Assembly (NCBI RefSeq): GCF_900215505.1
Contig: NZ_LT907844.1
Location: 4,232,001 to 4,296,000 of the forward strand
Reading direction: 5' to 3'
Origin: Cohaesibacter sp. ES.047
GTDB lineage: Bacteria > Pseudomonadota > Alphaproteobacteria > Rhizobiales > Cohaesibacteraceae
DNA: 64,000 bases
Position 1 is the stretch's first letter, and every line of letters starts with the position of its first letter. The notes under the pieces are model-generated. The model saw only the letters and a program-made list of their open reading frames with translations. It did no database searches and was not told the origin of the DNA. Below are positions 17,743 through 32,668 of the stretch, one piece after another. Position numbers and translations under genes: made by a program.

Positions 17743-17790
17743 CCCCCGCTATCGGTCCTGAAGAAGGAGCAACAGCGAGGACGCTGGGGG
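17743..17790. other. Structured intergenic element (nested inverted repeats)
   Basis: Two nested arms can pair: CCCCCGC (17743-17749) with GCTGGGGG (17783-17790, T bulged) and GTCCT (17755-17759) with AGGAC (17778-17782), leaving an 18-base loop. On the minus strand CAGCGTCCTCGCTG can form its own small hairpin. It lies downstream of the first deglycase gene. It might be part of a complex terminator, a repeat element or a small RNA; no family match is evident. Confidence 0.35.
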
Positions 17791-17801
17791 ACTTACCCGG
17801 T

Positions 17802-17839
17802 GACTGTGCGGATGGTCGAGCTGGACCGACCGCGCAGTC
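17802..17839 (-). terminator. Stem-loop after the first deglycase gene
   Basis: GACTGTGCGG (17802-17811) pairs with CCGCGCAGTC (17830-17839) with one G-U pair, and GGTC/GACC extends the inner stem. It lies four bases beyond the stop codon of the deglycase gene. There is no U-run behind it on the minus strand, so it may act as a stabiliser or a factor-dependent terminator. Confidence 0.45.
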
Positions 17840-17842
17840 TGA

Positions 17843-18826
17843 TTAGTATTCCATGCGCCACATGTAGCGACGAACGCTCAGCGGATGACCACGAGAATCG
17901 CTGAGAGCAACGGCATAGGTGCGCAGCAGAGCGGTGAACATAATCGGAACCAGATATTCCGCTGCATCACCGGCAACTTCTTCAACGCCAAATTCTTCAG
18001 CATCAAGAACCAGCAGGCGCTTGGAGTATTTCTCAGCAAATGCCAGAGCGCGTTCGTCCATCTTGCGGGAATTTGCAAGGGTTTTCAGAACGATGAACGG
18101 CGTGTCGAAATCGGTGATTTCGAAAGGACCGTGGAAATATTCGCCAGAGTGGATGGCCGCAGAATGGACCCACTGCATTTCCTGCAGAAGACAGATAGCG
18201 AAGGAATAGGCGATGGAGTGGCAGGAACCAGAGCTCATCGTGTAGATGACAGGTTCGCGCTTGTAGGATTCGGCCCAGGCTTTTGCATTGTCTGCATGAG
18301 CGGCTTTGACTTTTTCAGCCTTGTCATGAAGCGTCGGCAGAGCGGCTTTGACCTGATCGATCTTGGTGTTGCCTTCCAGCTCTTTCAGGGAGCCAAGAAC
18401 CAGCTGAACCAGCAGCAGAGCGTTGTGTTTTTCGCCAACGGTCAGCGGATCGAATTCATAGTAGATGGCTTTTTCAGCAGCTTCATCAAGCTCGGATTCC
18501 GGCTTGTGGGTGAAGCAGATCGTCAACGCACCAGCTTCGCGGGCATAACGGGTAGCCGCGATGGTTTCAGGCGTGTTGCCCGAATGGGAACAGGTGATGA
18601 CAACAGAGTTCTTGCCAAGACGGACCGGAGCACGCGCAATGAATTCAGCGGAGCTGTAGGAATATGCAGCGATGCCCTTGGCTTCGCGGTCCATGACATA
18701 CTGGCCCTGCATGAGAAGGGCGTTGGATCCCCCACATGCGACAAAATAGAATTCCGTGACTGACTCGCGTGCTGCAACGGCAGCAATAGCCTCATCAAGG
18801 CCGGTATTTTTTACTTGATCATTCAT
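17843..18826 (-). CDS. SIS-domain sugar-phosphate deglycase, FrlB/FraB-like (copy 1)
   Basis: A 327-residue protein with two SIS domains (about residues 22-150 and 190-310). CGGSNALL and TCSHSGNTPET form the phosphosugar-binding loops. E216 (LLQEMQW) and H232 (GEYFHGP) have the same 16-residue spacing as the catalytic pair reported for Salmonella FraB. FrlB and FraB split 6-phosphofructosyl-amino acids (Amadori products) into glucose-6-phosphate and the amino acid. The C-terminus RRYMWRMEY is shared with copy 2 at 28512. The operator at 18875-18890 overlaps its -35 region. The GntR-UTRA gene is divergent. The substrate may be a fructosyl- or glucosyl-amine phosphate; the exact amino acid is unknown. 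Confidence 0.85.
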   Translation of the reverse strand: MNDQVKNTGLDEAIAAVAARESVTEFYFVACGGSNALLMQGQYVMDREAKGIAAYSYSSAEFIARAPVRLGKNSVVITCSHSGNTPETIAATRYAREAGALTICFTHKPESELDEAAEKAIYYEFDPLTVGEKHNALLLVQLVLGSLKELEGNTKIDQVKAALPTLHDKAEKVKAAHADNAKAWAESYKREPVIYTMSSGSCHSIAYSFAICLLQEMQWVHSAAIHSGEYFHGPFEITDFDTPFIVLKTLANSRKMDERALAFAEKYSKRLLVLDAEEFGVEEVAGDAAEYLVPIMFTALLRTYAVALSDSRGHPLSVRRYMWRMEY

Positions 18827-18874
18827 GATGAGATCCTTATGACGTTATATGACGTCTCTATACTTAGGCCACTA

Positions 18875-18890
18875 TTGAGACCGGTGTCAA
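18875..18890. promoter_or_regulatory. Shared regulon operator, site 1 (upstream of deglycase copy 1)
   Basis: TTGAGACCGGTGTCAA, an almost perfect palindrome with a central CG typical of LacI-family sites. On the minus strand it reads TTGACACCGGTCTCAA, so its first six bases form a -35 box TTGACA for the deglycase gene, with TAAGTA about 18 bases on as a weak -10. Near-identical sites occur at 24204, 28448 and 31716. Confidence 0.75.
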
Positions 18891-19130
18891 CACGGTGTTT
18901 TCATTTGCCGCCCCAAAAAGCGGAAATAACTGGCCTACGCTTTTGCAGCACGTCACCCGTTCGGCTAGTCTGTCGGCGAGTGAGCCGTCGTCTGCGGCGG
19001 CAAGTGACAAGGACCTTGGTTTTTCTGTCTGCGCACCTTTGGGTTGCCGCATCAGGAAACACTGGGATTGATTGGGGACCCCTGCCCTGGGAATATCCGA
19101 AAGGGGAAGATCCGAAAGAGAGGCACGCGA

Positions 19131-19871
19131 TTGTCTGAGAATGCGAACACACTTGCAAAAAACGCAGCAGTTCCGCTCTACGAACAGCTTAAATTCGCGC
19201 TCAAGGAGATGATCTCCACGCGTGCCCTTGGTCCCGGAGACACCATTCCCACCGAACCGGAGCTGTGCAAGCAATATAACGTCAGCCGCATCACCGTGCG
19301 ACGCGCGATCGCGGATCTTGAGGCCGAAGGTCTTCTGGAGAAACGGCATGGCAAGGGCACCTTCGTCACAGTACCAAAGATGGAAACCAGCCTGTTGAAT
19401 CTCGGCGGCTTCTCCGAAAGCTTCGGTCTGCGTCGCTTTCACGTCGAGAAATCGATTATGGAACTGGGAGAAGAGATTGCGGGCGAGAATTTGGGCCAAA
19501 AGCTGGGCATTGATCCGTCTGCCACAGTGCTGCATGTCAGTCGCCTGATCACCGCAGATGGCACGCCCTTCACGATCGAAAGCTCCTACTTCTCTCTGGA
19601 CCTTTTCCCCGGATTGGTGAGCGAAATTCACGATGACACCTCGCTTTACCACCTGCTGCAGACCAAATATGGCCGTGAGGTGAAGCATGCCAAGCGTGTC
19701 ATCAGCTGCCGGGTTGCCACCCCCAAGGAGAACACCATCTTCCACTGCAAAAGCGGAGATATCATCTTCGAGGTGGAAAAGACGGTGTATGGCGATGATC
19801 GCTCGATTCCGCTGCAATATTCGATGCTGCTGACGCCCAGCACCCGCATGAATCTCGTGATCGAAGTCTGA
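19131..19871 (+). CDS. GntR-family regulator with UTRA ligand domain (FrlR-like)
   Basis: A 246-residue regulator. The N-terminal GntR winged helix occupies residues 10-80 (PLYEQLKFALKEMI, GDTIPTEPELCKQYNVSRIT, KRHGKGTFV). The UTRA effector domain covers about residues 95-240. UTRA domains bind phosphosugars or amino-acid derivatives; FrlR of the fructoselysine operon is of this type. The TTG at 19131 has AGAGAGG seven bases upstream and matches the family N-terminus; an in-frame TTG at 19044 is less likely. It is divergent from deglycase copy 1, its probable target. It could also control the convergent hyuBA operon, but no site for it can be named. Confidence 0.85.
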   Translation: MSENANTLAKNAAVPLYEQLKFALKEMISTRALGPGDTIPTEPELCKQYNVSRITVRRAIADLEAEGLLEKRHGKGTFVTVPKMETSLLNLGGFSESFGLRRFHVEKSIMELGEEIAGENLGQKLGIDPSATVLHVSRLITADGTPFTIESSYFSLDLFPGLVSEIHDDTSLYHLLQTKYGREVKHAKRVISCRVATPKENTIFHCKSGDIIFEVEKTVYGDDRSIPLQYSMLLTPSTRMNLVIEV

Positions 19872-20014
19872 GGCAAAGCCTCGCAAAAGTTTAATTCCAT
19901 TCCCCGTCCGGTCCGGCCATCGGGCAGCGGGATGTGCCTCCCCGTTGCCACTGTTTGATAAATGCGAAAAAAAGGCGGGATCTCCAGCCAGGCCAGAGAT
20001 CCCAAGGCTGCTTA

Positions 20015-21637
20015 TCAAAGGGAATAGCCGTAAACCCGTTTCGCAAAGTCTTCAGAGATACGATCTTCTGCAAGATCCTTATTGATGGCCTCGACCGGTC
20101 GTTTGGAGGGGTCACCATAGCCCCCGCCACCGGGGGTCACGATTTCAACGATCTGGCCGGGTTTCAGGTCAGTCATGCCCTTGAAGTCGTCACGTCCATC
20201 GCCATAGTCGAGATGCGTCATCTCACCCGGCGTGCCGCCTTGCAGCCCCCAAGCGCGAGAGCTGACCCGAGATCCTTCCACAGTGAAACGGCAAGGTTTC
20301 TCAACGCGGTAAACGCGCCTGATCCCCATGCCGCCGCGATATTCTCCACCACCTGCAGAATCATCCACCAGTTCATAGCGCAGCAGTGTAAGCGGATATT
20401 CCAGCTCGAGCGCCTCGACAGGCAGGTTGGACGTGTTGGTCAGATGCACCTGAATACCCGAAAGGCCGTCCTTGGTCGGACGAGCACCGCCCCCACCGCC
20501 GATGGTTTCGAGATAGACCCAGATCGACCCATCCTCATGGGCACCATTGAAGATGGCACCAGTGCAGCAGCCGTTGCCCGCCGCAGCGACCTTGCCGGGA
20601 ATGGCCTTGGCAAGAGCACCCTGAATGATATCTGCGACGCGCTGACAGGCCGCGATGCGCCCTTCAACAGCGGCTGGATGCTTGCAGTTGAGGATCGACC
20701 CCTCTGGCGCGGTCACCGTCAACGGACGAGCCAGACCGGCATTGGGCAGGATGCTGGGGTCAACCACCATCTTCACCGCGTAATAACAGGACGCAAGCAG
20801 CGAAGTGTAGATCATATTAAGACCACCACGCACCTGTGGCGGGCCGTCGAAGGCAAGCGTCATCTCGTCGCCAGCAATCGTGATATCAACGGAGAATGTC
20901 ATTTTCTCCTGCCACTGGTTGCTGTCAAAGATGTCGGAGAAGGAATAGGTGCCATCGGCAATGGCGGCAATGCCGGCCCGCATCTTGCGCTCGGCATAAT
21001 CCTGCAATTCATCACCGGCCGCGAGCACCTTCTGGGTGCCGTATTTGGCACAGAGATCCTGCATCCGCTGCACGCAGAGCCGGTTGGCTGACATCTGCGC
21101 CCGCAGATCGGAAATCCGCTCATGGGGCACCTGACAGTTCAGGAGGAACATGTTCTGGATGTCTTCCTGCAACTCACCGGCCTTGTAGAGCCGAACAGGC
21201 GGAATGCGGATACCTTCCTGATAGATATGCTCGTGACCAAGGTCTGCAAAGTCGGAATGATGCGCGGTATTGACGGCCCAGGCGATCAGTTGATCATCAA
21301 CAAAGATCGGCTCGGCCATCACGATATCGGGCAGATGCGTCGCCCCGCCTTCATAGGCGTCATTCCCCATAAAAACGTCACCGGGCTTGATATCTTCAAG
21401 CCTGAAACGCTTCATGATGTTGGGCAAGATGCCGATGAAACTGCCCAGATGCATCGGGATATGTTCAGCCTGACAAAGGGTGTTGCCCTTATTGTCGAAC
21501 AGCGCAGTCGAGCAATCGCGTCGTTCCTTGATGTTGGTGGAATAGGAGGCACGGACCAGTGCCTCGCCCATTTCTTCCACGATCGAGGACAGCGCGGAGC
21601 CGATGACTTCTACGGTGATTGGATCGATCTGGCTCAT
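20015..21637 (-). CDS. hyuB: Hydantoinase/oxoprolinase subunit B (HyuB family)
   Basis: A 540-residue subunit of the ATP-dependent hydantoinase/5-oxoprolinase family. Typical features: DPITVEVIGSALSSIVEEMGEAL at the N-terminus, SADFSTALFD-like RRDCSTALFD, HIPMHLGS, GDVFMGNDAYEGGATHLPD, and a glycine-rich C-terminus GGGGYGDPSKRPVE. With HyuA it hydrolyses a cyclic amide (hydantoin, N-methylhydantoin, 5-oxoproline or similar) at the cost of ATP. Its start overlaps the hyuA stop by four bases (ATGA), so the two are translationally coupled. It lies inside the deglycase/kinase island, which may mean the substrate is a cyclised amino-acid derivative. Confidence 0.88.
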   Translation of the reverse strand: MSQIDPITVEVIGSALSSIVEEMGEALVRASYSTNIKERRDCSTALFDNKGNTLCQAEHIPMHLGSFIGILPNIMKRFRLEDIKPGDVFMGNDAYEGGATHLPDIVMAEPIFVDDQLIAWAVNTAHHSDFADLGHEHIYQEGIRIPPVRLYKAGELQEDIQNMFLLNCQVPHERISDLRAQMSANRLCVQRMQDLCAKYGTQKVLAAGDELQDYAERKMRAGIAAIADGTYSFSDIFDSNQWQEKMTFSVDITIAGDEMTLAFDGPPQVRGGLNMIYTSLLASCYYAVKMVVDPSILPNAGLARPLTVTAPEGSILNCKHPAAVEGRIAACQRVADIIQGALAKAIPGKVAAAGNGCCTGAIFNGAHEDGSIWVYLETIGGGGGARPTKDGLSGIQVHLTNTSNLPVEALELEYPLTLLRYELVDDSAGGGEYRGGMGIRRVYRVEKPCRFTVEGSRVSSRAWGLQGGTPGEMTHLDYGDGRDDFKGMTDLKPGQIVEIVTPGGGGYGDPSKRPVEAINKDLAEDRISEDFAKRVYGYSL

Positions 21638-23688
21638 TGGGCGATCTCCACGATAAGATTGAGATAGGCATCGACGACAGCGGTCATGCCGGGCAGGAGA
21701 ACACTGGTTGTATCCATCTGCTCGATAATGGCCGGGCCGGTAATCTGGTTGCCGTGCTTGAGGAGCTTGCGGTCATACACCGGGCAGTTGACGAAATCGC
21801 CAGCCTCTTTCAGCCAAACGTCCCGCTCCCCGATCCGGGCAGCATCTGATGCAGCGCCCTCGAGCGGATAGGACTGGAGCTGGGCCTTCTTGACTTCCCC
21901 GACAGCCTCGAGCCTCAAGGTGACCAACTGGATCTTTTCGCCCTTGGCGATAAAGCCGAAGCGCTGTTTATGGACGGCTTCAAAGCCTTCTTCCAGTTGC
22001 TTGAAGGTCTCAAGACTGATCGGACCTGCGGGGACAGGAACGGACAATTCATAATTCTGACCGGCGTAACGCATGTCGACCGTGCGCACTTCCTTGCGGC
22101 GGCTTTCGGGGATGTTGTCGGCAAGGAACCAGTCCTGCGCCTGAGACGACAATTCCGCAAAACCGGCCTCGACGGCGTCAAGCGAATGAGCCTCAAGTTC
22201 AGTGAGCCGCGAGATCGCAAAGTCGGCACGCAGATCGGTCAGCAAAAGGCCAAGCGCACAAAGGGCACCCGGCGTGAGCGGGATGATCATGCGCGAAATA
22301 TCAAGTTCCTTGGCAAGCCGGGCTGCATGCAAGGGACCGGCTCCGCCGAACGCCATCAGCGTATAATCGCGCGGGTCATGGCCACGCTGCACAGAGATCA
22401 CACGAATGGCCTTGGCCATGTTGGCGATCACCACCTGCAGAATACCGTCTGCGGTTTCCATCACCCCAAGACCGATCTGGTCAGCCAATCGCTGCACAGC
22501 CTCAACGGCAAGATCCCGGCGCACTTTCATACGGCCACCAAGGATCTCAACCGGGTTGAGGGTCTGCAAAACGATGTTGGCGTCGGTCACCGTCGGTTCT
22601 TCATTGCCGTTGCCATAACAGACCGGCCCCGGATAGGCCCCGGCAGAACGCGGCCCCACCTTGAGCAGACCACCGCTATCAACATGGGCGATCGAGCCGC
22701 CACCCGCTCCCACTGTGTGAATATCGAGCATCGGCGCCTTGATCGGATAGCCATGGACATCCGCTTCGCCCGTCAGATGACACACACCATTTTGCAGCAA
22801 AGCCACATCCGAGGAGGTGCCCCCGACGTCAAAGGTGATGATGTTGGGGAAGCCAGACATCTTGCCGATTTCCTGTGCGGCAACCACACCGGTGGACGGC
22901 CCGGAGAGCACGGTGCGCACCGGCAGGTCCGCTGCGGCATCAAATCCGATCACGCCACCATTGGACTGGGTCAACTGCGGCGCGACCTTCAGACCAACCT
23001 CGTCAAGACGCTTGCGCAGCCTCTCGATATAGCGCTTCATCACCGGCCCAAGATAGGTATTGACCACGGTCGTGGAGAGGCGTTCGAACTCTCGGAATTC
23101 CGGCGCGACGGCATGACTGGTTGACACGAAGACATCCGGCAGCATGTCCGCAACCACCTTCTGCGCCATCACTTCATGGTCTGTATTGAGGAAGCCATAC
23201 AGGAAGCAGATCGCGATTGCCTTGACATCCTGCTCCTTGAGCAGGGCGACTTCGCGCTTCAGGGCTTCCATATCAAGTGGCAGATCCACTGTACCGTCTG
23301 AGCGCATCCGTTCGGGCACCTGTCGGCGCAGATCACGACTGACCAGCTGCTCGGGCTTGTCGACATTCATGTCGTAAAGGCTTGGACGTTTCTGGCGGCC
23401 AAGCTCCAGCAAGTCACGGAAGCCGTCTGAAATCAACAATCCGGTCTTCACTCCGCGCAACTCGATCAGCGCGTTGGTGGCAACGGTCGTCCCGTGACCA
23501 AGGAAGCCCAGTTCGCTGGCGGACGCATCAACCTGCTCCAGTCCCTCGACAACCCCTTGCGCAATCGCACGGGACGGATCGTCAGGAGAAGATGACAGTT
23601 TCCAGATCTCCAGTCGCCCGGTCTCTTCCTCAAACAAGCAGATATCGGTGAAAGTGCCACCAGAATCCACTCCAATTCTCCAAACCAT
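21634..23688 (-). CDS. hyuA: Hydantoinase/oxoprolinase subunit A (HyuA family)
   Basis: A 684-residue ATPase subunit. Its N-terminus GVDSGGTFTDICLFEE is the phosphate-binding motif of the ASKHA-type hydantoinase N domain. FLGHGTTVATNALIE, DVGGTSSDVALL and VGAGGGSIAHVD follow in the usual order, with the C-terminal hydantoinase A domain after residue 500. The ATG at 23688 has AGAGAGAG upstream and fits the family; the frame extends 50 codons further up but with no similarity. It forms an operon with hyuB. Members act on N-methylhydantoin, 5-oxoproline, or acetone (distant carboxylases); which one applies here is unknown. Confidence 0.88.
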   Translation of the reverse strand: MVWRIGVDSGGTFTDICLFEEETGRLEIWKLSSSPDDPSRAIAQGVVEGLEQVDASASELGFLGHGTTVATNALIELRGVKTGLLISDGFRDLLELGRQKRPSLYDMNVDKPEQLVSRDLRRQVPERMRSDGTVDLPLDMEALKREVALLKEQDVKAIAICFLYGFLNTDHEVMAQKVVADMLPDVFVSTSHAVAPEFREFERLSTTVVNTYLGPVMKRYIERLRKRLDEVGLKVAPQLTQSNGGVIGFDAAADLPVRTVLSGPSTGVVAAQEIGKMSGFPNIITFDVGGTSSDVALLQNGVCHLTGEADVHGYPIKAPMLDIHTVGAGGGSIAHVDSGGLLKVGPRSAGAYPGPVCYGNGNEEPTVTDANIVLQTLNPVEILGGRMKVRRDLAVEAVQRLADQIGLGVMETADGILQVVIANMAKAIRVISVQRGHDPRDYTLMAFGGAGPLHAARLAKELDISRMIIPLTPGALCALGLLLTDLRADFAISRLTELEAHSLDAVEAGFAELSSQAQDWFLADNIPESRRKEVRTVDMRYAGQNYELSVPVPAGPISLETFKQLEEGFEAVHKQRFGFIAKGEKIQLVTLRLEAVGEVKKAQLQSYPLEGAASDAARIGERDVWLKEAGDFVNCPVYDRKLLKHGNQITGPAIIEQMDTTSVLLPGMTAVVDAYLNLIVEIAQ

Positions 23689-24348
23689 TGTATTCTCTCT
23701 CTTAAACGGAATTATGCTGCCACTTGCAGCTTCGGTGATTGGGTTTTGCCAAATCGGTTGAAGCGAAACTGTCCGGTTTCCCCCGTTGGCTTCACTCCCA
23801 TGGCGATCTGCGCACTTAGCGCGTGCGCGCCGCCCCATTCCTCAGCGCTCTTCCTATCAGATGCGACAAACCTACCAAAAAGTATCACTATATCGGACAT
23901 ACCATGAAGGTTTCCGAGCATCGTCGCGTCACCCGCGCGGCGCGAAAAATGATAGTCACGAGATCTTAGGCAGCGCACGTTTTCTGCTTCATAGCTCCGA
24001 TTCCTGCCACTTACGAGAGCAATCTTAGCGTTCCCACCATCATTCATGGAGACTGCACCTCGTGATAGAATTGTTCCTTAGCGAGAGGATATAACCAGAA
24101 ATGTTGCTCCGTAAACCTAATTTCTATCATTTTCTATCGTAACCCACCACGAAAACGTGCAAACCATGACAATTATCTGGGCAACTGAATTATTTTTAGG
24201 CTTTTGACACCGGTATCAATTCGAGAGCTTGACAATATTTGGAATTTTATGGCTGCATGTGAGAGATATGAGAGAAAACTCTTTCATTTCACCGTTAACA
24301 AATACCCGGAAGCGGGATCACTGGGTCGATTGCCGACTGGAGGATTAC
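23689..24348. other. Divergent regulatory region between hyuA and the second TRAP operon
   Basis: 660 bases without a convincing gene. A 111-codon minus-strand frame (23712-24047) has an ATG with a distant GAGG, but its product resembles nothing I know and its composition is not gene-like. The right part (24050-24240) is A/T-rich, with the regulon operator at 24204 and the TRAP leader up to a strong GGAGG before 24349. I saw no second copy of the operator near hyuA. Confidence 0.45.
24204..24219. promoter_or_regulatory. Shared regulon operator, site 2 (upstream of TRAP cluster 2)
   Basis: TTGACACCGGTATCAA, a 16-base near-palindrome, identical to the other regulon sites except at one or two positions. 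It begins with TTGACA, so it could again contain the -35 box. It lies 130 bases upstream of the binding-protein start codon. Confidence 0.75.
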
Positions 24349-25362
24349 ATGACAATTTCGAGACGCGACGTTCTTAAATATTCAACCATACTGGGCGCAG
24401 CCACTCTGGTTGGAACACCGTCCTTTGCTGCAGGCGCACGATGGGACTTGGCTGACGAGTATGGGGCTCAGTCGCTCACAGGTCAGGCCTGCAAGTTCTT
24501 TATCAATGAATTGAAGAAGAAAGTCGGCGACGCGCTGCAGATCACCTATCAGGGTGGTGGCGCACTTGGTTACAAGTCTGCCGATCATTTCGACGCGGTT
24601 GAAGATGGCGCCGTGCAGATTGCGATCACGCTGCTGACTCAGTTGGGCGGCATCGATCCACTGTTCAACCTCACCTCCCTGCCCTTCATGGCCCGTTCGC
24701 CCGAAGAAGCGCTCCTTCTTTGGAAGACCGCAAAACCCGAATACTCGAAGATCTTTGAAGATCACGACATGAAGCTGTTGTGGGCCATGCCAAACGCTCC
24801 GTCCGGCATTCACGCCAAATTGCCAATCACATCTGTTGATGCCATCGAAGGACTGCGCATCCGTACCTATGATGTGAACGGCACCCAGACACTGGTCAAT
24901 GCAGGGGCCTCGCCGCTGCAGATCTCCTGGGGTGATCTGATCCCGCAGCTGTCGACCGGCGGCATCGATGCGGTGCTCACCTCGGCAGATGGCGGCATGC
25001 AGCTCTCCATCTGGGACTATGTCTCCGATTTCACCGAAATCAACTATGCCATGGGGCTGTTTGTCTGCCACGTCAACAAACCAGCCTTTGACGCCCTGCC
25101 CGAAGATGTCCAGAAAGCGATCATGGATATCTGCGATGAGTGCGACACCTACAGCTGGAAGATCGTCGTGGACTCCATCGAGAAGTCCTACAAGGTCATG
25201 AGTGAGAACGGAATGACCATCACCCATGATGATGACGTACCCAGCGAAGTCTTCGACCTGCTTCAGAATGCAGGCAAGCCCGTACGTGAAGACTGGCTTG
25301 CCCAGACCGGAGAGAAAGGCAAGACCGTTCTCGATGCCTTCGAAGCCAAGAAGTCCAGCTAA
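24349..25362 (+). CDS. TRAP transporter binding protein (DctP family) with Tat signal, cluster 2
   Basis: A 337-residue periplasmic binding protein. The N-terminus reads MTISRRDVLKYS followed by a hydrophobic stretch ending in FAAGA, a twin-arginine signal (S-R-R-x-V-L-K), so it is probably exported folded by the Tat system encoded at 57-59 kb. The body shows the DctP pattern: GALGYKSADHFDAVEDGAVQ, the region ITSVDAIEGLRIRTYDVN, and WGDLIPQLSTGGIDAV. The start is decided by GGAGG seven bases upstream of ATG 24349. It heads the operon with dctQ and dctM. Its promoter carries the regulon operator, so its ligand should relate to the deglycase pathway. Confidence 0.9.
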   Translation: MTISRRDVLKYSTILGAATLVGTPSFAAGARWDLADEYGAQSLTGQACKFFINELKKKVGDALQITYQGGGALGYKSADHFDAVEDGAVQIAITLLTQLGGIDPLFNLTSLPFMARSPEEALLLWKTAKPEYSKIFEDHDMKLLWAMPNAPSGIHAKLPITSVDAIEGLRIRTYDVNGTQTLVNAGASPLQISWGDLIPQLSTGGIDAVLTSADGGMQLSIWDYVSDFTEINYAMGLFVCHVNKPAFDALPEDVQKAIMDICDECDTYSWKIVVDSIEKSYKVMSENGMTITHDDDVPSEVFDLLQNAGKPVREDWLAQTGEKGKTVLDAFEAKKSS

Positions 25363-25420
25363 TCCGGCGTCCGGTATCCGGGTCTTGCCGGGTACTGGAC
25401 CTTTTTAAGGTCACCAATCG

Positions 25421-26023
25421 ATGTCCACGAATACTGGCTTCGACTCATCGGAAGCAGACGCGATCTCCGACGGGTCACCTTTCAAATTCCCCTCTCATCC
25501 CGATGATCCGGTTTGGCTCGCCATGCTGAGCCGCATTTCGAGCAGCCTGAATCTGTTCTGTGCAGTGATTTCGGCGATCTTTGTGTCCCTGATGACCCTG
25601 TTGATCATCGTCGAGATTGGTTTGCGCTTCTTCTCGCTCTCGACATTCATGGCAGACACGCTGGTCGGATATGGGGTCGCGGCGACGACCTTTCTGTCGG
25701 CCGCCTGGGCGCTCGAGCACGGTGCCATGATCCGCGTCACCGCACTCACCAATATCATGCCCTCCTTCGCGCAGCGCGTCGCAGAGCTCTTTTGCCTTGT
25801 TGCCACTGAGGCCATCTTCCTCTTCCTCATCAGCTACCAGTGGCACTCGGTTTATAAATACTGGTCGCGCGGAACGGTCGGCCAGCATTACGTCAAGATC
25901 CCGCTCTGGATACCGGAAAGCTTTTTCCTCATCGGACTGGGGCTTCTGGCCCTGCAGGTTTTTGTGAGACTGCTTCGCGTTCTCGCTGTCGGACATACAT
26001 CGGAAGGATCGCTCAAGATCTGA
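25421..26023 (+). CDS. TRAP transporter small permease (DctQ), cluster 2
   Basis: A 200-residue membrane protein with four hydrophobic helices after a polar N-terminal segment of about 35 residues. The DctQ-like region FMADTLVGYGVAATTFLSAAWALEHGAMIRV sits between helices 2 and 3. It lies 58 bases behind the binding protein and 18 bases before dctM, in one operon. The long N-terminal extension is somewhat unusual; a later start is possible, but no better start codon with a ribosome binding site is seen. Confidence 0.87.
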   Translation: MSTNTGFDSSEADAISDGSPFKFPSHPDDPVWLAMLSRISSSLNLFCAVISAIFVSLMTLLIIVEIGLRFFSLSTFMADTLVGYGVAATTFLSAAWALEHGAMIRVTALTNIMPSFAQRVAELFCLVATEAIFLFLISYQWHSVYKYWSRGTVGQHYVKIPLWIPESFFLIGLGLLALQVFVRLLRVLAVGHTSEGSLKI

Positions 26024-26041
26024 GCATGAAAGGTTAGAACC

Positions 26042-27346
26042 ATGTCTGTTGCGCTTTCCTCCATTCTCCTGCTCGCCCTGCTGGCCCTGTTTCTGGGAGC
26101 CGGTACCTGGATCTTTGCCGGCCTCATGCTATCGGGCGCAGGGGCCATGTGGCTCATTCTTGATTTTCCCTGGGTCCGGGTCGGTGCGATCGCCACGAAA
26201 GTGATCTCCTCCTCCGCCGTATCCTGGGAATTGGCCGCTGTGCCGATCTTTGTCTGGATGGGCGATATCATCTTCAGAACGGATATATCCGAACGCCTGT
26301 TTCGCGGGCTCGCCCCTATCGTCGCCAAGATCCCGGGCGGTCTGTTGCATACCAACGTCTTCGGCTGCACCCTGTTTGCCGCAATCTCGGGCTCTTCGAC
26401 CGCAACAACGGCAACGGTTGGCAAGATCACCGTGCCAGAGCTCAAAAAGCGCGATTACAGCATGTCGCTGGCAGCCGGATCCCTCGCCGGCGCAGGCAGT
26501 TTCGGTTTGCTGATCCCTCCCTCCATCGCCATGATCATCTATGGTGTGTTGGCCGAGGTCTCGATCTCGAAACTCTTCATCGCAGGGATTGTCCCCGGTG
26601 CGATGATGGCGCTGCTGTATTCGGGCTACATCGCCATCATCTCGACCTTCTTCCCGCATATGGCCCCCAAATATGAAGGCGAAATCTCTCTGCGTGTCGT
26701 CCTGAAGGGGCTTTGGGAACTGGCCCCCCTCGCCGTCTTGATGTTCGTCGTCCTCGGCTCGATTTATTCGGGCCTTGCCACACCGTCTGAAGCAGCAGCA
26801 GTGGGCGTTTTCTGCGCCATCCTGATCACGATAGCCACCCGGCAGTTCAGTATCAGGATGCTTGTCGAAAGCCTGATGAACACCCTGCGGATTTCGTCCA
26901 TGATCTGCATGCTGATTGCAGCATCGGCCTTCCTGTCCGCAGCGATCGCCTATATGCATCTGCCTACGATGATCACCGAAATGATTGCCAGCCTCGATCT
27001 CTCACCTTATGGGGTCCTGTTGATTCTGGCTGTACTCTATATCGTACTCGGCATGTTCCTGGACGGCACATCGATGACCGTGATGACCGTGCCGATTGCC
27101 GTGCCGTTGATCGTTCAGGCTGGCTACGATCCGCTCTGGTTCGGCATCTATCTGGTCATCATGATCGAAATGAGCACGATCACGCCACCCGTCGGCCTCA
27201 ACCTTTACATCCTGCAGGCGCTGACCGGGCGAAGTTTGGGAGCCACAATTCTCGCCGCGGCCCCCTTCTTCCTGCTGCTCTGTCTCGGCACGGCCCTTCT
27301 GGCCACATTCCCCCAGATAGTTCTGTGGTTGCCGTCGGCACTATAG
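26042..27346 (+). CDS. TRAP transporter large permease (DctM), cluster 2
   Basis: A 434-residue polytopic membrane protein with DctM landmarks: VPIFVWMGDIIF, NVFGCTLFAAISGSSTATTATVG, GLLIPPSIAMIIYG and the C-terminal EMSTITPPVGLNLYILQ. It is the ion-coupled transport subunit. It is the last gene of the operon: a hairpin CCCCGA/TCGGGG (27382-27402) and a longer inverted repeat follow before the DeoR gene. Confidence 0.92.
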   Translation: MSVALSSILLLALLALFLGAGTWIFAGLMLSGAGAMWLILDFPWVRVGAIATKVISSSAVSWELAAVPIFVWMGDIIFRTDISERLFRGLAPIVAKIPGGLLHTNVFGCTLFAAISGSSTATTATVGKITVPELKKRDYSMSLAAGSLAGAGSFGLLIPPSIAMIIYGVLAEVSISKLFIAGIVPGAMMALLYSGYIAIISTFFPHMAPKYEGEISLRVVLKGLWELAPLAVLMFVVLGSIYSGLATPSEAAAVGVFCAILITIATRQFSIRMLVESLMNTLRISSMICMLIAASAFLSAAIAYMHLPTMITEMIASLDLSPYGVLLILAVLYIVLGMFLDGTSMTVMTVPIAVPLIVQAGYDPLWFGIYLVIMIEMSTITPPVGLNLYILQALTGRSLGATILAAAPFFLLLCLGTALLATFPQIVLWLPSAL

Positions 27347-27413
27347 TGACATTTCGACTGGAATTTGTTTATTCATCCATTCCCCGAGTGAGGTTTTCGG
27401 GGTAAGTTCAAGT

Positions 27414-27458
27414 CAGGGTTGATAGATCTGTGTAGTAACATTCAATCCATCAACCCTG
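27414..27458. repeat. 10-base inverted repeat upstream of the DeoR regulator
   Basis: CAGGGTTGAT (27414-27423) is repeated as ATCAACCCTG (27449-27458) with a 25-base spacer. It ends 27 bases before the TTG start of the DeoR-family gene. The arms could be two half-sites for the regulator itself (autoregulation) or the stem of a hairpin that ends TRAP-operon transcription; no T-run follows. Confidence 0.45.
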
Positions 27459-27485
27459 CCTATTGAGAAACTACTGGAGTGTATC

Positions 27486-28292
27486 TTGGTCGAAATAACT
27501 GTATCTCAAGGGGAAGAGCTGTTGCCCGCAGAAAGACGGGAACAACTGATTCAGTGGTTTCAGACCAATGTCTCCGGCACCAATCAGGAACTCGCACGCA
27601 TGTTCAACATCTCCGTCTCGACAGTGAGACGAGATCTGGACTCGCTGGCAGCCGAAGGCATCGTACGCCGCACCCATGGCGGCGCAGTGAGGATTCGCTC
27701 GCGCACCAATTTCGAACCATCAACCGATCTGGCGCGGCGGACCGCGGTCGAAGAAAAGAACTCGATCGTCCGGCTCACCTGCAAGATGATTGAACCCAAG
27801 CAGAGCATCATCATCGATTCCGGTGCCGTGATTGCCCATATGCTTGCAGAGGAAATCGCAGCCAATGGGATCCCCCTGACTGTCATCACCAACGACCTCT
27901 ATGTTGCCACCACCCTCGCCTACAAGGAGCATATCAAGCTTATCGTACCGGGTGGAACCTGTCGCTTCGGCTCCTACGGCCTGCTAGGAGAGCCCGGGCT
28001 CGAGTTTTTCGATGATATCCGCTGCGACTGCTTCTTCATGTCAGCTCAGGCACTCGACATAGAGTGCGCATCGGAAACCTTGCTGGATGTGATGTTGATG
28101 AAGCGGGCGATGATCAAGGCGGCCGAACGCACCGTCCTGATGCTCGATAGCAGCCGCTTCTTTGACCGCGCCATTTATCGCACCGTGCCGATCGAGACCT
28201 TTGACACCATCATCACCGATGAAGGTCTGTCCCACGAGGCAGCCGAGAAAATCCGCCTGCGCGGTGTCAATCTCGAGATTGCCCGTTTCTGA
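27486..28292 (+). CDS. DeoR-family transcriptional regulator
   Basis: A 268-residue regulator with an N-terminal DeoR HTH (residues 15-70: RREQLIQWFQ, TNQELARMFNISVSTVRRDLDSLAAEGIV, RTHGGA) and a C-terminal DeoRC sugar-phosphate-sensing domain with the D-S-G-A motif (IDSGAVIAHM) and the SR/D pattern MLDSSRFF. It starts with TTG at 27486, with GGAG seven bases upstream. DeoR proteins usually respond to phosphorylated sugars, matching the neighbouring phosphosugar deglycase and kinase. It lies 140 bases after dctM and 220 bases before deglycase copy 2. Confidence 0.88.
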   Translation: MVEITVSQGEELLPAERREQLIQWFQTNVSGTNQELARMFNISVSTVRRDLDSLAAEGIVRRTHGGAVRIRSRTNFEPSTDLARRTAVEEKNSIVRLTCKMIEPKQSIIIDSGAVIAHMLAEEIAANGIPLTVITNDLYVATTLAYKEHIKLIVPGGTCRFGSYGLLGEPGLEFFDDIRCDCFFMSAQALDIECASETLLDVMLMKRAMIKAAERTVLMLDSSRFFDRAIYRTVPIETFDTIITDEGLSHEAAEKIRLRGVNLEIARF

Positions 28293-28447
28293 AGCTCCCC
28301 CCCTACGAGACCATAGCCTCAGCCCCTTCCGGACCTGCGCTACAAGCGCTTTTTGGGGCACCTGCACCCACACCTGCCTTCCATCGCGAATTTCTGAATA
28401 GGGAAAAAACCTCTTTTTTCTTGCCAAAAAACGTCCGTTTTGCAATA

Positions 28448-28463
28448 TTGACACCGGTCTCAA
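28448..28463. promoter_or_regulatory. Shared regulon operator, site 3 (upstream of deglycase copy 2)
   Basis: TTGACACCGGTCTCAA, exactly the minus-strand sequence of site 1. It lies 48 bases upstream of the second deglycase start and begins with a -35-like TTGACA, so a bound repressor would block RNA polymerase. Confidence 0.77.
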
Positions 28464-28511
28464 TATAAGATTCCATTCAAAACATCCCATCACGTAATCA
28501 AGGATCTCAGG

Positions 28512-29495
28512 ATGAACGATCAAGTTAAGGCCTACGGTCTGGATGAAGCCATCGAGGCTGTCGCGGCCCACGGCTCCATCTCCGAAATTTATTTTGTAGC
28601 CTGCGGTGGATCCTATGCGCTCCTGCAGGAAGGGCAGTATGTGGTGGACTGTGAGGCGAAATCCATCGCCTCTTACGCATACAGCTCAGCCGAGTTCATC
28701 TCCCGCGCACCGGCGCGCCTTGGCAAGAATTCACTGGTCATCACCTGCTCGCATTCCGGCAACACCCCCGAAACGGTTGCAGCAACCGAGTATGCCCGCA
28801 AGGCCGGAGCGCTGACCATTTCCCTGACCAATCTGGCCGACTCCCCGCTGGACAAAGCCACAGAAAACACGGTCTTCTACGAATGGGATCCGCTGTCTGT
28901 CACCACCAAGCACAATTCGGTGATGCTGCTCCTGTTGGTGCTTGGCATTCTCAACAAGCTTGAAGGCAACAGCAAATATGATCTGGCGAACAAGGCTATC
29001 CCCGCGCTGCACGATATCGGTGAAGGCCTGAAAGAAAAATATGCTGCCGCGGCTGCTGAATTCGGCGAGTCTCACAAGCGCGAACCGGTCATCTACACGA
29101 TGGCGTCCGGCGCGAACCATTCAACCGCTTATGCCTTTGCAATCTGTCTGCTGCAGGAAATGCAGTGGGTGCATTCCGCCTGCATCCATTCGGGCGAATA
29201 TTTCCACGGGCCGTTTGAAATCACCGATTTCGATACCCCGATCATCATCCTCAAAGGCCTCGGCAATGCCCGCAAGATGGATGAACGCGCTCTGGCATTT
29301 GCACAGAAATACTCCAAACGTCTTTCTGTTCTCGATGCGACCGACTTCGGTCTCGAAGCAGTGGCTGGCGAGGTTGCAGAATATCTCACGCCGATCATGT
29401 TCAATCTGGTCCTTCGGCTCTATGCCGTTGAACTCGGCGACAAGCGCGGCCATCCGCTGACCGTCCGCCGCTACATGTGGCGCATGGAATACTGA
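28512..29495 (+). CDS. SIS-domain sugar-phosphate deglycase, FrlB/FraB-like (copy 2)
   Basis: A 327-residue paralogue of the protein at 17843. The two align end to end without a visible gap and share most residues in the core. Both SIS loops (CGGSYALL, TCSHSGNTPET) and the putative catalytic pair E216/H232 are kept. Differences cluster at residues 105-125 and 170-190, so substrate preference may differ. Family role: hydrolysis of 6-phosphofructosyl- or 6-phosphoglucosyl-amino acids to a hexose phosphate and the amino acid. It is followed after a hairpin by an FrlD-like kinase, which would make its phosphorylated substrate. The ribosome binding site AAGGATCTCAGG precedes ATG 28512. Confidence 0.86.
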   Translation: MNDQVKAYGLDEAIEAVAAHGSISEIYFVACGGSYALLQEGQYVVDCEAKSIASYAYSSAEFISRAPARLGKNSLVITCSHSGNTPETVAATEYARKAGALTISLTNLADSPLDKATENTVFYEWDPLSVTTKHNSVMLLLLVLGILNKLEGNSKYDLANKAIPALHDIGEGLKEKYAAAAAEFGESHKREPVIYTMASGANHSTAYAFAICLLQEMQWVHSACIHSGEYFHGPFEITDFDTPIIILKGLGNARKMDERALAFAQKYSKRLSVLDATDFGLEAVAGEVAEYLTPIMFNLVLRLYAVELGDKRGHPLTVRRYMWRMEY

Positions 29496-29502
29496 TCAAA
29501 CT

Positions 29503-29536
29503 CGGATCGGAGGCCCTTTCGATTGTCTCCGATCCG
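29503..29536 (+). terminator. Strong stem-loop between deglycase copy 2 and the kinase
   Basis: CGGATCGGAG (29503-29512) pairs perfectly with CTCCGATCCG (29527-29536); a run of six T follows eight bases later. It could attenuate transcription into the kinase gene or protect the deglycase mRNA from 3' decay. Confidence 0.55.
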
Positions 29537-29659
29537 CCCTCACTTTTTTGAATAGTCAAAAATCAATAATCAGAACGCACCAAATTTTCGGCCTCATTTC
29601 CAAAAGGGAAGCGATCTCACCGAATTTTCGCGAAAAGACAACAATAGAAAGTCCTAGAA

Positions 29660-30508
29660 ATGGCTCGCTCCAACAACAAGGCCTCCCTGCTCGGCATTGG
29701 CGACAACGTGGTTGATTTCTACAAAGACCGGAATGAATTTTTCCCCGGCGGAAACGCGCTCAACGTCGCAGTGCTGGCCAAACGCTTTGGCCTCGAGAAA
29801 GCCGGCTATATCGGACTTGTCGGCAATGATGAAGAGGGCAAGCATGTGGTCAGAAGCCTTGAGGCCGAGGGCCTCTGGATCGACCGCATTCGTCAGGCTT
29901 GCGGCGAGAATGGCAAGGCCGTCGTCCATCTCGACGATCAGGGAGACCGCGTCTTTCTGGGGTCCAACAAGGGCGGCATCCAGCGCCAACTGACCCTGAA
30001 AATGGAAGAGGTCGACCTTCAGGCCGTAGAAGATTATGGCTGCGTTCACACATCCATCTTCAGCTATCTGGAGAATGAACTGCCCCTGATCAGGGAGCGG
30101 GCGAATGCGGTGGCGTTCGATTTCTCCTCCCATCTGGAACTGGACTATGTGAAACGTATCGCCCCTTCTATCACGACGGCTTTCTTTTCCGGATCTGCGC
30201 TGAATGAAAGCGAGGTTGACGACCTGATCGAGACCGTCGCAGGGCTGGGTGTTGACACAATCGGCGTGACCCGCGGCTCCGACGGTGCCTATTGGCAGGT
30301 TGGCGGCAAACGCTATCGCCAGGGCATCAAGCCGGTTGAAGTCGTCGACACGCTCGGCGCGGGAGATTCCTTCATCGCCGCGTATCTGAGTGGCATCCTG
30401 ATGGGCCATTCTGTTGAGGAATCTCTGGATGGTGCCGCGACTTTCGCAGCCGACACCTGCACCCGCCTCGGTGCCTTCGGTCATCCCTATAAGGTTTCCG
30501 CGAGCTGA
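29660..30508 (+). CDS. PfkB-family sugar kinase, FrlD-like (fructosyl-amino-acid 6-kinase candidate)
   Basis: A 282-residue ribokinase-fold kinase. The N-terminal substrate motif is PGGNALNVAV (residues 29-38) and the C-terminal signature DTLGAGDSFIAAY (230-242), with D236 as catalytic base. It has the compact length of FrlD rather than the 310 or more residues of ribokinase. FrlD phosphorylates fructoselysine on C6 before FrlB cleavage. Placement directly behind an FrlB-like deglycase makes the same two-step order likely here. A bidirectional terminator separates it from the convergent LacI gene. The amino-acid part of the substrate is not known. Confidence 0.86.
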   Translation: MARSNNKASLLGIGDNVVDFYKDRNEFFPGGNALNVAVLAKRFGLEKAGYIGLVGNDEEGKHVVRSLEAEGLWIDRIRQACGENGKAVVHLDDQGDRVFLGSNKGGIQRQLTLKMEEVDLQAVEDYGCVHTSIFSYLENELPLIRERANAVAFDFSSHLELDYVKRIAPSITTAFFSGSALNESEVDDLIETVAGLGVDTIGVTRGSDGAYWQVGGKRYRQGIKPVEVVDTLGAGDSFIAAYLSGILMGHSVEESLDGAATFAADTCTRLGAFGHPYKVSAS

Positions 30509-30562
30509 GGCTGCAAGACGACAGGATTGCTTCATCGAAGCCAGATCTGGTCACAAATTGAC

Positions 30563-30591
30563 AAAAGGGCGAGATTTGATCTCGCCTTTTT
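30563..30591. terminator. Bidirectional terminator between kinase and LacI genes
   Basis: AAAAGGGCGAGAT and ATCTCGCCTTTTT form a stem with a TTG loop, flanked by A and T runs on either side. It lies between the convergent ends of the kinase (plus) and LacI-type (minus) genes. Confidence 0.85.
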
Positions 30592-30592
30592 G

Positions 30593-31660
30593 TCATTTCG
30601 CAGTCTCGACTGACTGTCTGTCGATCATCTGCATCTTCATCACATGCCGCAATGGCGGCTCGGTTACGCCTTCAATCCGTTTGATGAGTTGTTCGGCACA
30701 CCAGCGCCCCATCTCCGCGACAGGTTGGTCAATCACCGTGATTGTCGGGTTCGTGACTTCCGTCCAGTCGGCATTGTGAAACGCGATCAGCGACAAGTCG
30801 GACGGCATATCTATATCGCGCCGCTTTGCCTGCTTGAAGATCTTCAGCGCCACATGACTGTCCGATGCAAGCATCGCGGTCGGACGGTCCGCCTGATCAA
30901 GCACCTTGCTGATCGAGGCACTAAGACCACGATCGGGATCGGCATTGAGTACGATAATGCTGTCCTCCTGCGGAATTCCGCCAGCACGGCAGGCTGAGAG
31001 GAATCCCGAGATACGGCGTCCGACCGACGAGGTGGGAATCAGCAATTCACCATTTTCATCCATCCCGCTTTCCAGCGTTTCGGTCACGAATGCCAGCCGA
31101 CGGTGGCCAGCCTCGATAAATTGCTCAGTCGCCTTCGAAGCTGATTCGAAATCATCGCTGACAACCGTATCGACTTCCAGACTGGGAACCTCGCGGTCGA
31201 ACAGAACCATCGCACAATTGAGGGATTTGAGATTCTCAAGGTGGGCCGTTTGATAGCGATTGGCCGGCGCAATGATCAAACCGTCAACCTGCTTACCCAC
31301 CAGAACGTTCACAGCCTCTCGTTCCACATCGAAATTCTCATCCGAGTTGGTCAAAATCACATTGAATCCGCTCGCATTGGCAACGTCGGTGATACTTCTC
31401 ACAGCAATACCAAAGAATGAGTTTTCGATGTCACCCACCACAACACCGATGGTTTTCGATTTTCCGGTAGTCATCGAACGAGCCAACTCATTTGCTCTAT
31501 ATTTCAGAGACTTGGCAGAGGCTTGCACGCGTTCGCGGACTTTTTCGCTTGTCACGCCATAGCCCCCAAGCACACGCGCTGCGGTCGACTTGGAAACATG
31601 TGCATGTCGGGCAACGTCGGCAACGGTGACGGCAGGAGACTGAAGTTTCTTTTTATCCAT
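30593..31660 (-). CDS. LacI-family transcriptional regulator
   Basis: A 355-residue regulator with a LacI HTH and hinge at residues 10-60 (VTVADVARHAHVSKSTAARVL, YRANELARSMTTGKSKTIGVV) and a periplasmic-binding-protein-like effector domain after it (PTAMLASDSHVALKIFKQAKRR, DLSLIAFHNADWTEVTNPTIT). It is divergent from the ABC transporter, with a perfect 14-bp palindrome TGAGACCGGTCTCA between them. LacI proteins favour such CG-centred palindromes, so this is the prime candidate for the regulator that binds all four regulon operators, including its own promoter. The inducer is probably a sugar-amine or its phosphate. Confidence 0.9.
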   Translation of the reverse strand: MDKKKLQSPAVTVADVARHAHVSKSTAARVLGGYGVTSEKVRERVQASAKSLKYRANELARSMTTGKSKTIGVVVGDIENSFFGIAVRSITDVANASGFNVILTNSDENFDVEREAVNVLVGKQVDGLIIAPANRYQTAHLENLKSLNCAMVLFDREVPSLEVDTVVSDDFESASKATEQFIEAGHRRLAFVTETLESGMDENGELLIPTSSVGRRISGFLSACRAGGIPQEDSIIVLNADPDRGLSASISKVLDQADRPTAMLASDSHVALKIFKQAKRRDIDMPSDLSLIAFHNADWTEVTNPTITVIDQPVAEMGRWCAEQLIKRIEGVTEPPLRHVMKMQMIDRQSVETAK

Positions 31661-31715
31661 AATTTAAATGCCTACAGACGAGTTGACGGTCAGTCAAGAT
31701 CATTATAGTCTTTCA

Positions 31716-31731
31716 TTGAGACCGGTCTCAT
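31716..31731. promoter_or_regulatory. Shared regulon operator, site 4 (LacI/ABC transporter divergent promoter)
   Basis: TTGAGACCGGTCTCAT, with a perfect palindromic core TGAGACCGGTCTCA (31717-31730). It lies between the LacI-family gene and the ABC binding-protein gene and so can control both. It is the most symmetric of the four sites. Confidence 0.8.
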
Positions 31732-31834
31732 TAATAAGGATCGGAATAAAATTCGCCAAAATCACTCACTTTCGATTTTGTCGGTTCAAACACCAAATAA
31801 GCCAGATAACCGGCAAGCCCCCATGGAGAACAGC

Positions 31835-32668
31835 ATGAAGATTACCAATCTTTTCGGCAAATTCACCCGCCGTTCCTACCTGGCAATGATGTCAGGTCTA
31901 GTTGTATCCTGTCTCGTTGCTCCCGCCAACGCTGCAGATGACAATCCCTACGGACTTTTGGATACTGACTCCATTATGGTAGGCACCATGTCCGATGCGA
32001 AACCATATGCGTTTGTGACTGCAGACGGCACATTTTCCGGTTTCGACGTTGAGTTCTTCCAAAACATTGCCAAACGGCTCGGCTTCGAAAAAGATCAGGT
32101 CACCTTTGTTGGTCAGGATTTCGCAGCACTTATTCCTTCCGTTGTCAATGGCCGCTTTGACGTGGCCGTCGGCGCGATCGGCACCACCGCGCAACGTCAG
32201 AAAGTCGCTGACTTCACGGATGGTTATCTCGCAGGCTTCCTCTCGGTTCTCAGTTCCGATGAATCGCTGTCCACCATCGAAGCCCTGGATGACAAGCGCC
32301 TCGGCATCGTGCAGGGCACTTTGCAGGATGACTATGCGCAGAAGCATTTCCCCAAAGCTCAGCTGGTTCGTTTCCCAGACAACAACAGCGCCGTTGCTGC
32401 CCTGAACAATGGCATGGTCGACGCTCACTTCCTCGATTTCGAAGCAGCCAAACAGTTCGGTAAAAACTATCCGGGCCTGAAAGTCATGCAGAACTTCGCA
32501 TCCTTCGATGCACCCGCAGGTTTCGTTGTGCGTAAAGGAAACAGCAGGCTGCTTGACGCACTCAATGAAAAGATCCACGAAGCCATGCAGGATGGCACTT
32601 GGAAAGAACTGCACAGCAAGTGGTTCCCAGGCAGCCCGATGCCTAAACAGTATCTCCCGCAGAACTGA
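31835..32668 (+). CDS. ABC transporter substrate-binding protein, polar-amino-acid type
   Basis: A 277-residue SBP_bac_3-family protein. The signal peptide (residues 1-33, KFTRRSYLAMMSGLVVSCLVAPANA) is followed by the family core: SDAKPYAFVTADGTFSGFDVEF, ALIPSVVNGRFDVAVGAIGTTAQRQKVADFT, and GIVQGTLQDDYAQKHFP. Proteins of this type bind amino acids, opines and related compounds in the periplasm. The ATG at 31835 has GGAG seven bases upstream; in-frame starts at 31778 and 31823 lack one. It lies behind regulon operator 4. A stable hairpin (32705-32728) separates it from the fused permease/ATPase gene, as often seen when the binding protein is made in excess. Confidence 0.88.
   Translation: MKITNLFGKFTRRSYLAMMSGLVVSCLVAPANAADDNPYGLLDTDSIMVGTMSDAKPYAFVTADGTFSGFDVEFFQNIAKRLGFEKDQVTFVGQDFAALIPSVVNGRFDVAVGAIGTTAQRQKVADFTDGYLAGFLSVLSSDESLSTIEALDDKRLGIVQGTLQDDYAQKHFPKAQLVRFPDNNSAVAALNNGMVDAHFLDFEAAKQFGKNYPGLKVMQNFASFDAPAGFVVRKGNSRLLDALNEKIHEAMQDGTWKELHSKWFPGSPMPKQYLPQN

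Follow-up and report, generated by a model that had tools for sequence, protein, structure and literature searches.

A recurrent 16-bp palindrome at four promoters of a Cohaesibacter gene island: probable operators of a SocR-like LacI-family repressor

Results

Four palindromes in one island

The window analyzed here is a stretch of 64,000 nucleotides from Cohaesibacter sp. ES.047 (NZ_LT907844.1, positions 4,232,001 to 4,296,000). It contains an island of genes in which a LacI-family regulator stands divergent from a SocA-like solute-binding protein gene and a SocB-like fused ABC permease/ATPase gene. A SIS-domain deglycase (deglycase 2) and a PfkB-type kinase lie side by side at 28512-30508, and the rest of the island holds a DeoR-family regulator, a TRAP transporter, HyuA and HyuB, a GntR/UTRA regulator and a paralogous deglycase (deglycase 1). 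Distributed among the promoters of these genes are four near-identical 16-bp palindromes, here operators 1 to 4 (Table 1), and the analyses below make it very probable that they are operators of the island's SocR-like LacI repressor.

All four palindromes are present where the original prediction placed them, and their positions upstream of deglycase 1, the TRAP genes, deglycase 2 and the LacI/ABC pair are confirmed. Each is an even palindrome with a CG at its center. This symmetry had been called typical of LacI-family sites, in agreement with the family features given in PMC4052901: CG-centered even palindromes, sites mostly 30-140 bp upstream, and autoregulation in 72%. The further claim that the copy in the LacI promoter is the most symmetric holds for its inner 14 bp, which pair perfectly, but not for the count of mispaired positions, which is exactly one in every operator: the outermost pair (1/16) in operator 4, and pair 5/12 in operators 1, 2 and 3.

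Table 1. Positions of the four operators and of the genes and candidate element around them (window coordinates)
Feature	Position	Strand	Sequence, basis and remarks
Operator 1	18875..18890	-	TTGACACCGGTCTCAA in the deglycase 1 direction; 48 bp between its end and the ATG; matrix score 18.1
Operator 2	24204..24219	+	TTGACACCGGTATCAA; TRAP operon (ATG 24349, 129 bp away) on one side, SDR remnant and HyuAB on the other; matrix score 17.2
Operator 3	28448..28463	+	TTGACACCGGTCTCAA; 48 bp before deglycase 2; matrix score 21.5
Operator 4	31716..31731		TTGAGACCGGTCTCAT; LacI (55 bp) on one side, SocA-like gene on the other; matrix score 29.6, the best in the window
LacI-family regulator, SocR-like, 355 aa	30593..31660	-	Pfam LacI, Peripla_BP_3
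Solute-binding protein, SocA-like (family 3)	31778..32668, likely start 31823	+	PDB matches; 61% to SocA-position protein
Fused ABC permease/ATPase, SocB-like	32859..34376	+	Pfam BPD_transp_1, ABC_tran; 77% to SocB-position protein
Deglycase 2 (SIS domain), MocD-like	28512..29495	+	58% identity (306 aa) with the mocD-position SIS protein of pAoF64/95
PfkB-type kinase, MocE-like	29660..30508	+	49% identity with the mocE-position kinase
Deglycase 1 (SIS domain), paralogue of deglycase 2	17843..18826	-	70% to deglycase 2; tree
TRAP transporter genes	24349..27346	+	Pfam DctP (binding protein); frames 25421-26023 and 26042-27346 named permeases by position and length alone
HyuA	21634..23688	-	Pfam Hydantoinase_A; start 23688 deduced from congener L098
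HyuB	20015..21637	-	Pfam Hydantoinase_B
GntR/UTRA regulator	19044..19871, true start probably later	+	library match; at a separate locus in six congeners
DeoR-family regulator	27486..28292	+	library match; next gene upstream of operator 3
Candidate GntR element, ACGTCATATAACGTCAT-like	18839..18855		between operator 1 and deglycase 1

The motif is rare in the genome

A search of the window with operator 1, allowing up to three mismatches, returned nine strand-wise matches against a mean of 0.51 (largest 3) in shuffled sequence. Across the 5.11-Mb genome (one contig) the pattern TTGASACCGGTNTCAW is matched with zero or one mismatch at the four operators only, so that frequent unrelated hits, the outcome against which the original prediction had been set, are not seen genome-wide at this stringency. 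Relaxing the limit to two mismatches raises the number to 40 on the forward and 35 on the reverse strand, versus 4 and 8 for a reversed control pattern.

Sites were scored with a matrix of 20 columns built from 157 sites upstream of LacI homologues at 78 loci of other genera (see below); Cohaesibacter was left out to avoid circularity. Within the window this matrix ranks operators 4, 3, 1 and 2 first to fourth; the next-best scores are 14.0 and 6.2, and the 14-bit place, at 39895, was set aside as lying inside a reading frame (39690-41150). A background of 1.35 Mb from the same 78 loci contains one place of at least 17 bits, which means that about four chance places are expected in 5.1 Mb. Operators 1 and 2 are thus not proven by score alone, and the weaker sites rest also on clustering, promoter position and conservation. 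Exact 16-mers in G014, G015 (two) and G059, the last a genome of another genus, were set aside because all four lie inside open reading frames of 167-728 codons.

A related palindrome, CTGACACCGATGTCAT, was noted at G000:C1:3988591-3988606. It precedes the match of a different LacI-type gene (L191) by 39 bp and is perhaps the own operator of that protein.

Operators 3 and 4 are conserved with LacI in the genus

Among 18 same-genus genomes, the window genome included (hereafter the congeners; one of those without this LacI is only 64% complete), eight carry the LacI at an identity of at least 77%. Exact intergenic sites are found in these eight, and the other ten have none outside long reading frames. 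Operator 3 is the identical 16-mer in all eight LacI-bearing congeners, and the core of operator 4, GAGACCGGTCTC, is likewise found in 8/8.

In six of the eight the island is split into two loci, the second being on another contig or megabases away. Locus one carries deglycase 2, the kinase, LacI and the SocAB-like genes; locus two carries a second kinase (kinase 2), deglycase 1, GntR, HyuBA, an oxidoreductase, a short-chain dehydrogenase/reductase (SDR), the TRAP genes and DeoR. Both conserved operators (3 and 4) sit at the LacI locus in 6/6 split congeners, with GntR and DeoR elsewhere. In the window genome and in G013 the two loci lie next to each other without kinase 2, only a remnant is left of the oxidoreductase and SDR genes, and a palindrome that lies within the oxidoreductase gene of the split congeners is gone.

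Operators 1 and 2 are full-strength in these last two genomes only. G013 has the same 16-mer at deglycase 1 and, at its TRAP site, TTGACACCGGTTTCAA (one change), with flanking bases that differ. In the six split congeners the TRAP site is degenerate (TTGGTACCGGTGTCTA, score 8.0). Operator 1 was not found at deglycase 1 in these six or in two Pleomorphomonas loci; the split congeners keep TTGACT at its place. The predicted regulon therefore has a core that all eight LacI-bearing congeners retain and an extension at full strength in only two of them: the four-promoter form is lineage-specific.

The same core accompanies LacI homologues in other genera

Genome contigs searched with the single LacI sequence gave no relative; with a LacI alignment as query they gave 289, and the analysis used the best 80 (2 from Cohaesibacter, 78 from other genera). 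These 80 loci (L104-L183), fetched as stretches of up to 21 kb rather than whole genomes, include two LacI-bearing congeners and the species of G042. Their regulators are 46-80% identical to that of the window, and the exact 12-bp GAGACCGGTCTC lies within 250 bp upstream of LacI in every one (80/80). It is absent from all 5541 control blocks (250 bp each) taken at these loci, six of which come within one base. A candidate repressor site in the promoter of LacI itself is thus kept with the regulator in 80/80 fetched loci and 8/8 congeners.

The site is commonly double. Two core places (at most two mismatches) lie upstream of LacI in 76 of the 80 loci, 20-23 bp apart in 75; the four loci with a single place are two from Cohaesibacter and two from Pleomorphomonas. 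In the 78 loci outside Cohaesibacter the neighbors include a solute-binding protein (in 70) and an ABC protein (in 77). A GntR homologue of at least 150 bits occurs in two of these stretches and a DeoR homologue of at least 150 bits in none. In G042, where the core GAGACCGGTCTC is also present, TGAGACCGGTCTC remains between LacI (50%) and a SocA-like gene, with no GntR or DeoR match at E 1e-30.

Which regulator reads the sites

The original prediction held that one LacI-type protein reads all four sites, and the cores at 80/80 loci, the co-occurrence among congeners and the positions of the loci all argue for it. It also described this protein as the island's one LacI gene. There is indeed a single LacI, but the GntR/UTRA and DeoR regulators are present too, each near a site, and so the island contains three candidate readers of the motif. 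The GntR/UTRA protein might read the four sites, the copy at LacI merely placing LacI in a GntR regulon: its gene adjoins operator 1 and faces deglycase 1 across it. We consider this very improbable, for in six congeners the deglycase 1 promoter beside GntR has no operator, GntR homologues are rare beside the operator in other genera and absent from G042 at the thresholds given above, and the deglycase promoter next to GntR bears a different conserved element in 10/10 loci scanned, the two Pleomorphomonas loci included. Of 18 sequences scanned, 10 have this ACGTCATATAACGTCAT-like element, each in one place: the deglycase 1 loci of Cohaesibacter (eight) and, in variant form, the two loci from Pleomorphomonas. 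It was not found in the other eight, namely six separate LacI loci, pAtC58 and pAoF64/95. It is a better candidate for the GntR site. The DeoR-family regulator is an even poorer prospect: its gene lies immediately upstream of operator 3 and comes after the TRAP genes that operator 2 precedes, but the protein has no homologue in the 78 operator-bearing stretches or in G042 by the same measures, and in six congeners it is at the other locus than the two conserved sites. Since all three regulators occur in the same eight genomes, presence does not discriminate between them; position does. Both alternatives were rejected on the split-locus positions, the rarity of these regulators beside the operator and the separate GntR element.

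Several findings nonetheless weigh against assigning the sites to LacI. GntR and DeoR are present in exactly the same 8/18 congeners. The solute-binding and ABC proteins travel with LacI, so that the link of the motif is to the LacI-transporter pair; it could in principle belong to any transporter regulator, with LacI the sole regulator seen throughout. The genome holds 24 further places that match the LacI query, one of them just downstream of CTGACACCGATGTCAT. Operators 1-3 score 8-12 bits below operator 4 in the LacI promoter, and palindromes within reading frames of other genomes score as high or higher: 23.3, 21.7 and 19.0 bits in G015 and G014, both without this LacI, and 16.8-20.2 bits for one that the six split congeners carry in their oxidoreductase gene. 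Lastly, TTGACA, which the original prediction regarded as -35-like at three sites, does begin operators 1 (minus strand), 2 and 3, each time reading towards the downstream gene, and would fit a half-site adjusted to a -35 element; but a promoter scan gave no paired -10 for it at deglycase 1, deglycase 2 or TRAP. The same scan gave ATGAGA-18-TATAAT (10 of 12) at operator 4 towards LacI and TTGATA-16-AAAAAT (9 of 12) at operator 2, on the minus strand towards HyuAB. Over the 17.8-kb region promoter-like sites are not above chance (10 found vs 8.2 expected); of the two best matches, one begins within operator 4 and faces LacI, which speaks for the assignment to LacI, and the other lies inside HyuB.

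It is also conceivable that LacI controls operators 3 and 4 only, operators 1 and 2 being weak or chance likenesses that arose on a TTGAC element and go unused. The two sites are full-strength in just two genomes and have the lowest scores of the four, TTGACT is kept at the same deglycase 1 place in the split congeners, and intragenic palindromes elsewhere reach comparable scores. Yet G013 retains both, with an unchanged 16-mer at deglycase 1 and a single change at TRAP, in flanks that differ, and with one place of at least 17 bits per 1.35 Mb, two at promoters of one island are unlikely by chance. We regard this restricted control as unlikely, and control of all four sites by the SocR-like LacI as the better explanation. 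What the computation shows directly is where the sites are, how specific they are and that they are conserved together with this LacI.

A palindrome within the oxidoreductase gene

The intragenic palindrome of the split congeners, GTGAGACCGGTATCAC, is present in 6/6 (L096-L101; in L099 at 10133-10148) and lies within a run of eight codons that are identical in all six. In this gene 153 of the 367 shared-residue codons (42%) are identical, and there are two other runs of at least five such codons. The palindrome was at first viewed as an accident, a view that was reopened after the codon run and the scores in 6/6. It is possible that GTGAGACCGGTATCAC is an intragenic operator, which weakens the notion that in split congeners the second module stands outside the regulon.

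Relationship to soc, moc and frl/fra systems

The predicted LacI has a helix-turn-helix and a periplasmic-binding-like effector domain (PF00356, 36.0 bits, cut-off 27; PF13377, 92.9 bits, cut-off 26.5). On the Agrobacterium plasmid pAtC58, socR and socABCD, genes for deoxyfructosyl-glutamine, lie beside repABC, according to PMC4231840. The gene order of pAtC58 is repABC, an FAD-binding oxidoreductase, a Gfo/Idh/MocA oxidoreductase, a fused permease/ATPase, a binding protein and a divergent LacI-type gene; soc names were matched to these genes by position, since the record gives none, and the two oxidoreductases we take to be SocC and SocD. Baek et al. 2003 reportedly found that SocR acts negatively on socR and socABCD.

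Of the 25 places in the genome that match LacI, the window LacI ranks first when the SocR-position protein of pAtC58 is the query (317 bits, 49%; next paralogue 152). As in soc, the window LacI is divergent from SocA-like (61%) and fused SocB-like (77%) genes; the top two PDB matches of the SocA-like protein, 5l9o and 5lom, are a deoxyfructosyl-amino acid transporter binding protein (368 bits). Two exact GAGACCGGTCTC cores lie between the SocA- and SocR-position genes of pAtC58. These, however, are doubled, 21 bp apart, whereas the intergenic region of the window has one; pAtC58 has two oxidoreductase genes after SocB, whereas the window has a deglycase and a kinase and two more operator-bearing promoters. 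SocC and SocD gave no match at 1e-10 in the window or the Cohaesibacter loci tested (the rest of the genome was outside this search), and for this reason the window was not filed as a complete soc system. By these comparisons the window LacI qualifies as a SocR-like protein, the counterpart of the SocR-position protein of pAtC58.

The catabolic genes resemble moc of pAoF64/95: the SIS and PfkB proteins encoded there after the transporter genes share 58% and 49% identity with deglycase 2 and the kinase, respectively (MocD, MocE and MrtR were matched by gene order, the record being without names). The moc regulator is a GntR/UTRA repressor, MrtR, and its transporter is of another type than that of the window; the window GntR is 27% identical to the GntR at the MrtR place. 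The inducer acting through MrtR is deoxyfructosyl glutamine, not mannopine, according to PMC6341043. There is likeness to FrlB/FraB too: fructoselysine 6-phosphate deglycase is the best NCBIfam match of both window deglycases, but at 136 and 126 bits against a cut-off of 430, and fraB-annotated records match deglycase 2 at 40-43% (among the matches listed). The best NCBIfam match of the kinase is fructoselysine 6-kinase, below the cut-off. From these families, the deglycase and kinase would act on a phosphorylated Amadori compound.

Judged by its gene content, the window joins a SocR-SocAB import module to a MocD/MocE-like deglycase-kinase route. In the 78 loci of other genera a SocD-like protein of at least 200 bits is found in 74, SocC in 22, a MocD-like protein in 5 and a MocE-like one in 2. 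Both Pleomorphomonas loci are among the four without SocD, and they are the two with MocD and MocE; each has GntR, deglycase, kinase, LacI and SocAB-like genes in one cluster. A class-wide search of 385 genomes for deglycase 2 at E 1e-60 returned the window genome only.

History of operators 1 and 2

It is possible that operators were relocated or captured when the two loci came together, creating double control with the GntR and DeoR of the module; we put this at somewhat less than an even chance, slightly lower than before the possible intragenic operator was taken into account. Gain of operator 1 is favored because it is missing from the six congeners and the two Pleomorphomonas loci. Loss of operators 1 and 2, instead of gain, is also possible, the three Cohaesibacter clades having no resolved order. 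The adjacency of the two loci may be old or recent; the Pleomorphomonas genes form single clusters.

The DNA of deglycase 1 adds a further element. The window copy is 92-93% identical to those of G002, G003 and G009 (G002 93%) and 86-87% identical to those of G001, G004 and G006 (G004 86%); its first 123 bases are 99% identical to G002, and the promoter upstream differs. Exchange between lineages is likely, complicating the history. Deglycases 1 and 2 also share 18 bases at their promoters. Upstream alignments group the deglycase 1 flanks together and the deglycase 2 flanks together, and the paralogues form separate clades (in a tree of five of the eight congeners), which makes a simple copy of the promoter at gene duplication an unlikely source of the shared bases. 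A very short conversion may be their source.

Further features of the island

Between operator 4 and LacI lies an imperfect palindrome, TTGAC-N5-GTCAA (at about 31684-31698), whose arms are kept while the spacer varies in nine aligned genomes, G042 included; it could be a -35 element or a site for another regulator. Upstream of TRAP, at about 24120-24150, TTCTATCATTTTCTATCGTAACCCACC is strongly conserved in the eight congeners, with a few changes in some, and is a candidate DeoR site.

The remnant at 23715-24161 (minus strand) comprises the start of the SDR gene and the end of the FAD-dependent oxidoreductase gene. Both are longer and open in split congeners (L098, L099); the remains in G013 are similar to those of the window. 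Kinase 2, which follows deglycase 1 in split congeners, is missing at 17548-17842; tblastn at 1e-3 returned the other kinase only. A likely terminator follows the ABC gene: an inverted repeat (34417-34452) whose 17-bp arms match perfectly around a 2-base gap.

Discussion

Together the above analyses suggest a simple scheme. Without ligand, a LacI dimer would occupy TTGAGACCGGTCTCAA-type sites at or near promoter elements and block RNA polymerase. Its release from the DNA would be brought about by a deoxyfructosyl-glutamine-like Amadori compound or a product derived from one. LacI would act as a repressor rather than an activator, to judge from its family and from where the sites lie. At its core the regulon would include the genes of LacI, of the SocAB-like importer and of the deglycase 2-kinase pair, with import, phosphorylation and cleavage to glucose 6-phosphate and an amino acid as the probable pathway, to judge from the protein families. 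Full operators also stand at the deglycase 1 promoter and between TRAP and HyuAB in the window genome and in G013, and through them the same repressor would control the neighboring module; with GntR and DeoR still encoded in that module, control of deglycase 1 and TRAP would then be double.

No published description of this operator was found in the literature (RegPrecise, which may record it, was outside the search), nor any literature on Cohaesibacter together with Amadori compounds.

A sharply defined operator for the SocR-type group, beside SocA/SocB-like genes in many genera, would make Amadori-compound regulons predictable from genome sequence. The SocR-SocAB import module is not tied to SocD: in the Cohaesibacter and Pleomorphomonas loci it stands together with a moc-like deglycase-kinase pair, and it is in these deglycase-kinase-joined loci that the operator is single, not double. 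If the operators were indeed relocated or captured, then the eight congeners show both states of a growing regulon; with their two arrangements, they make the gain or movement of operators directly testable.

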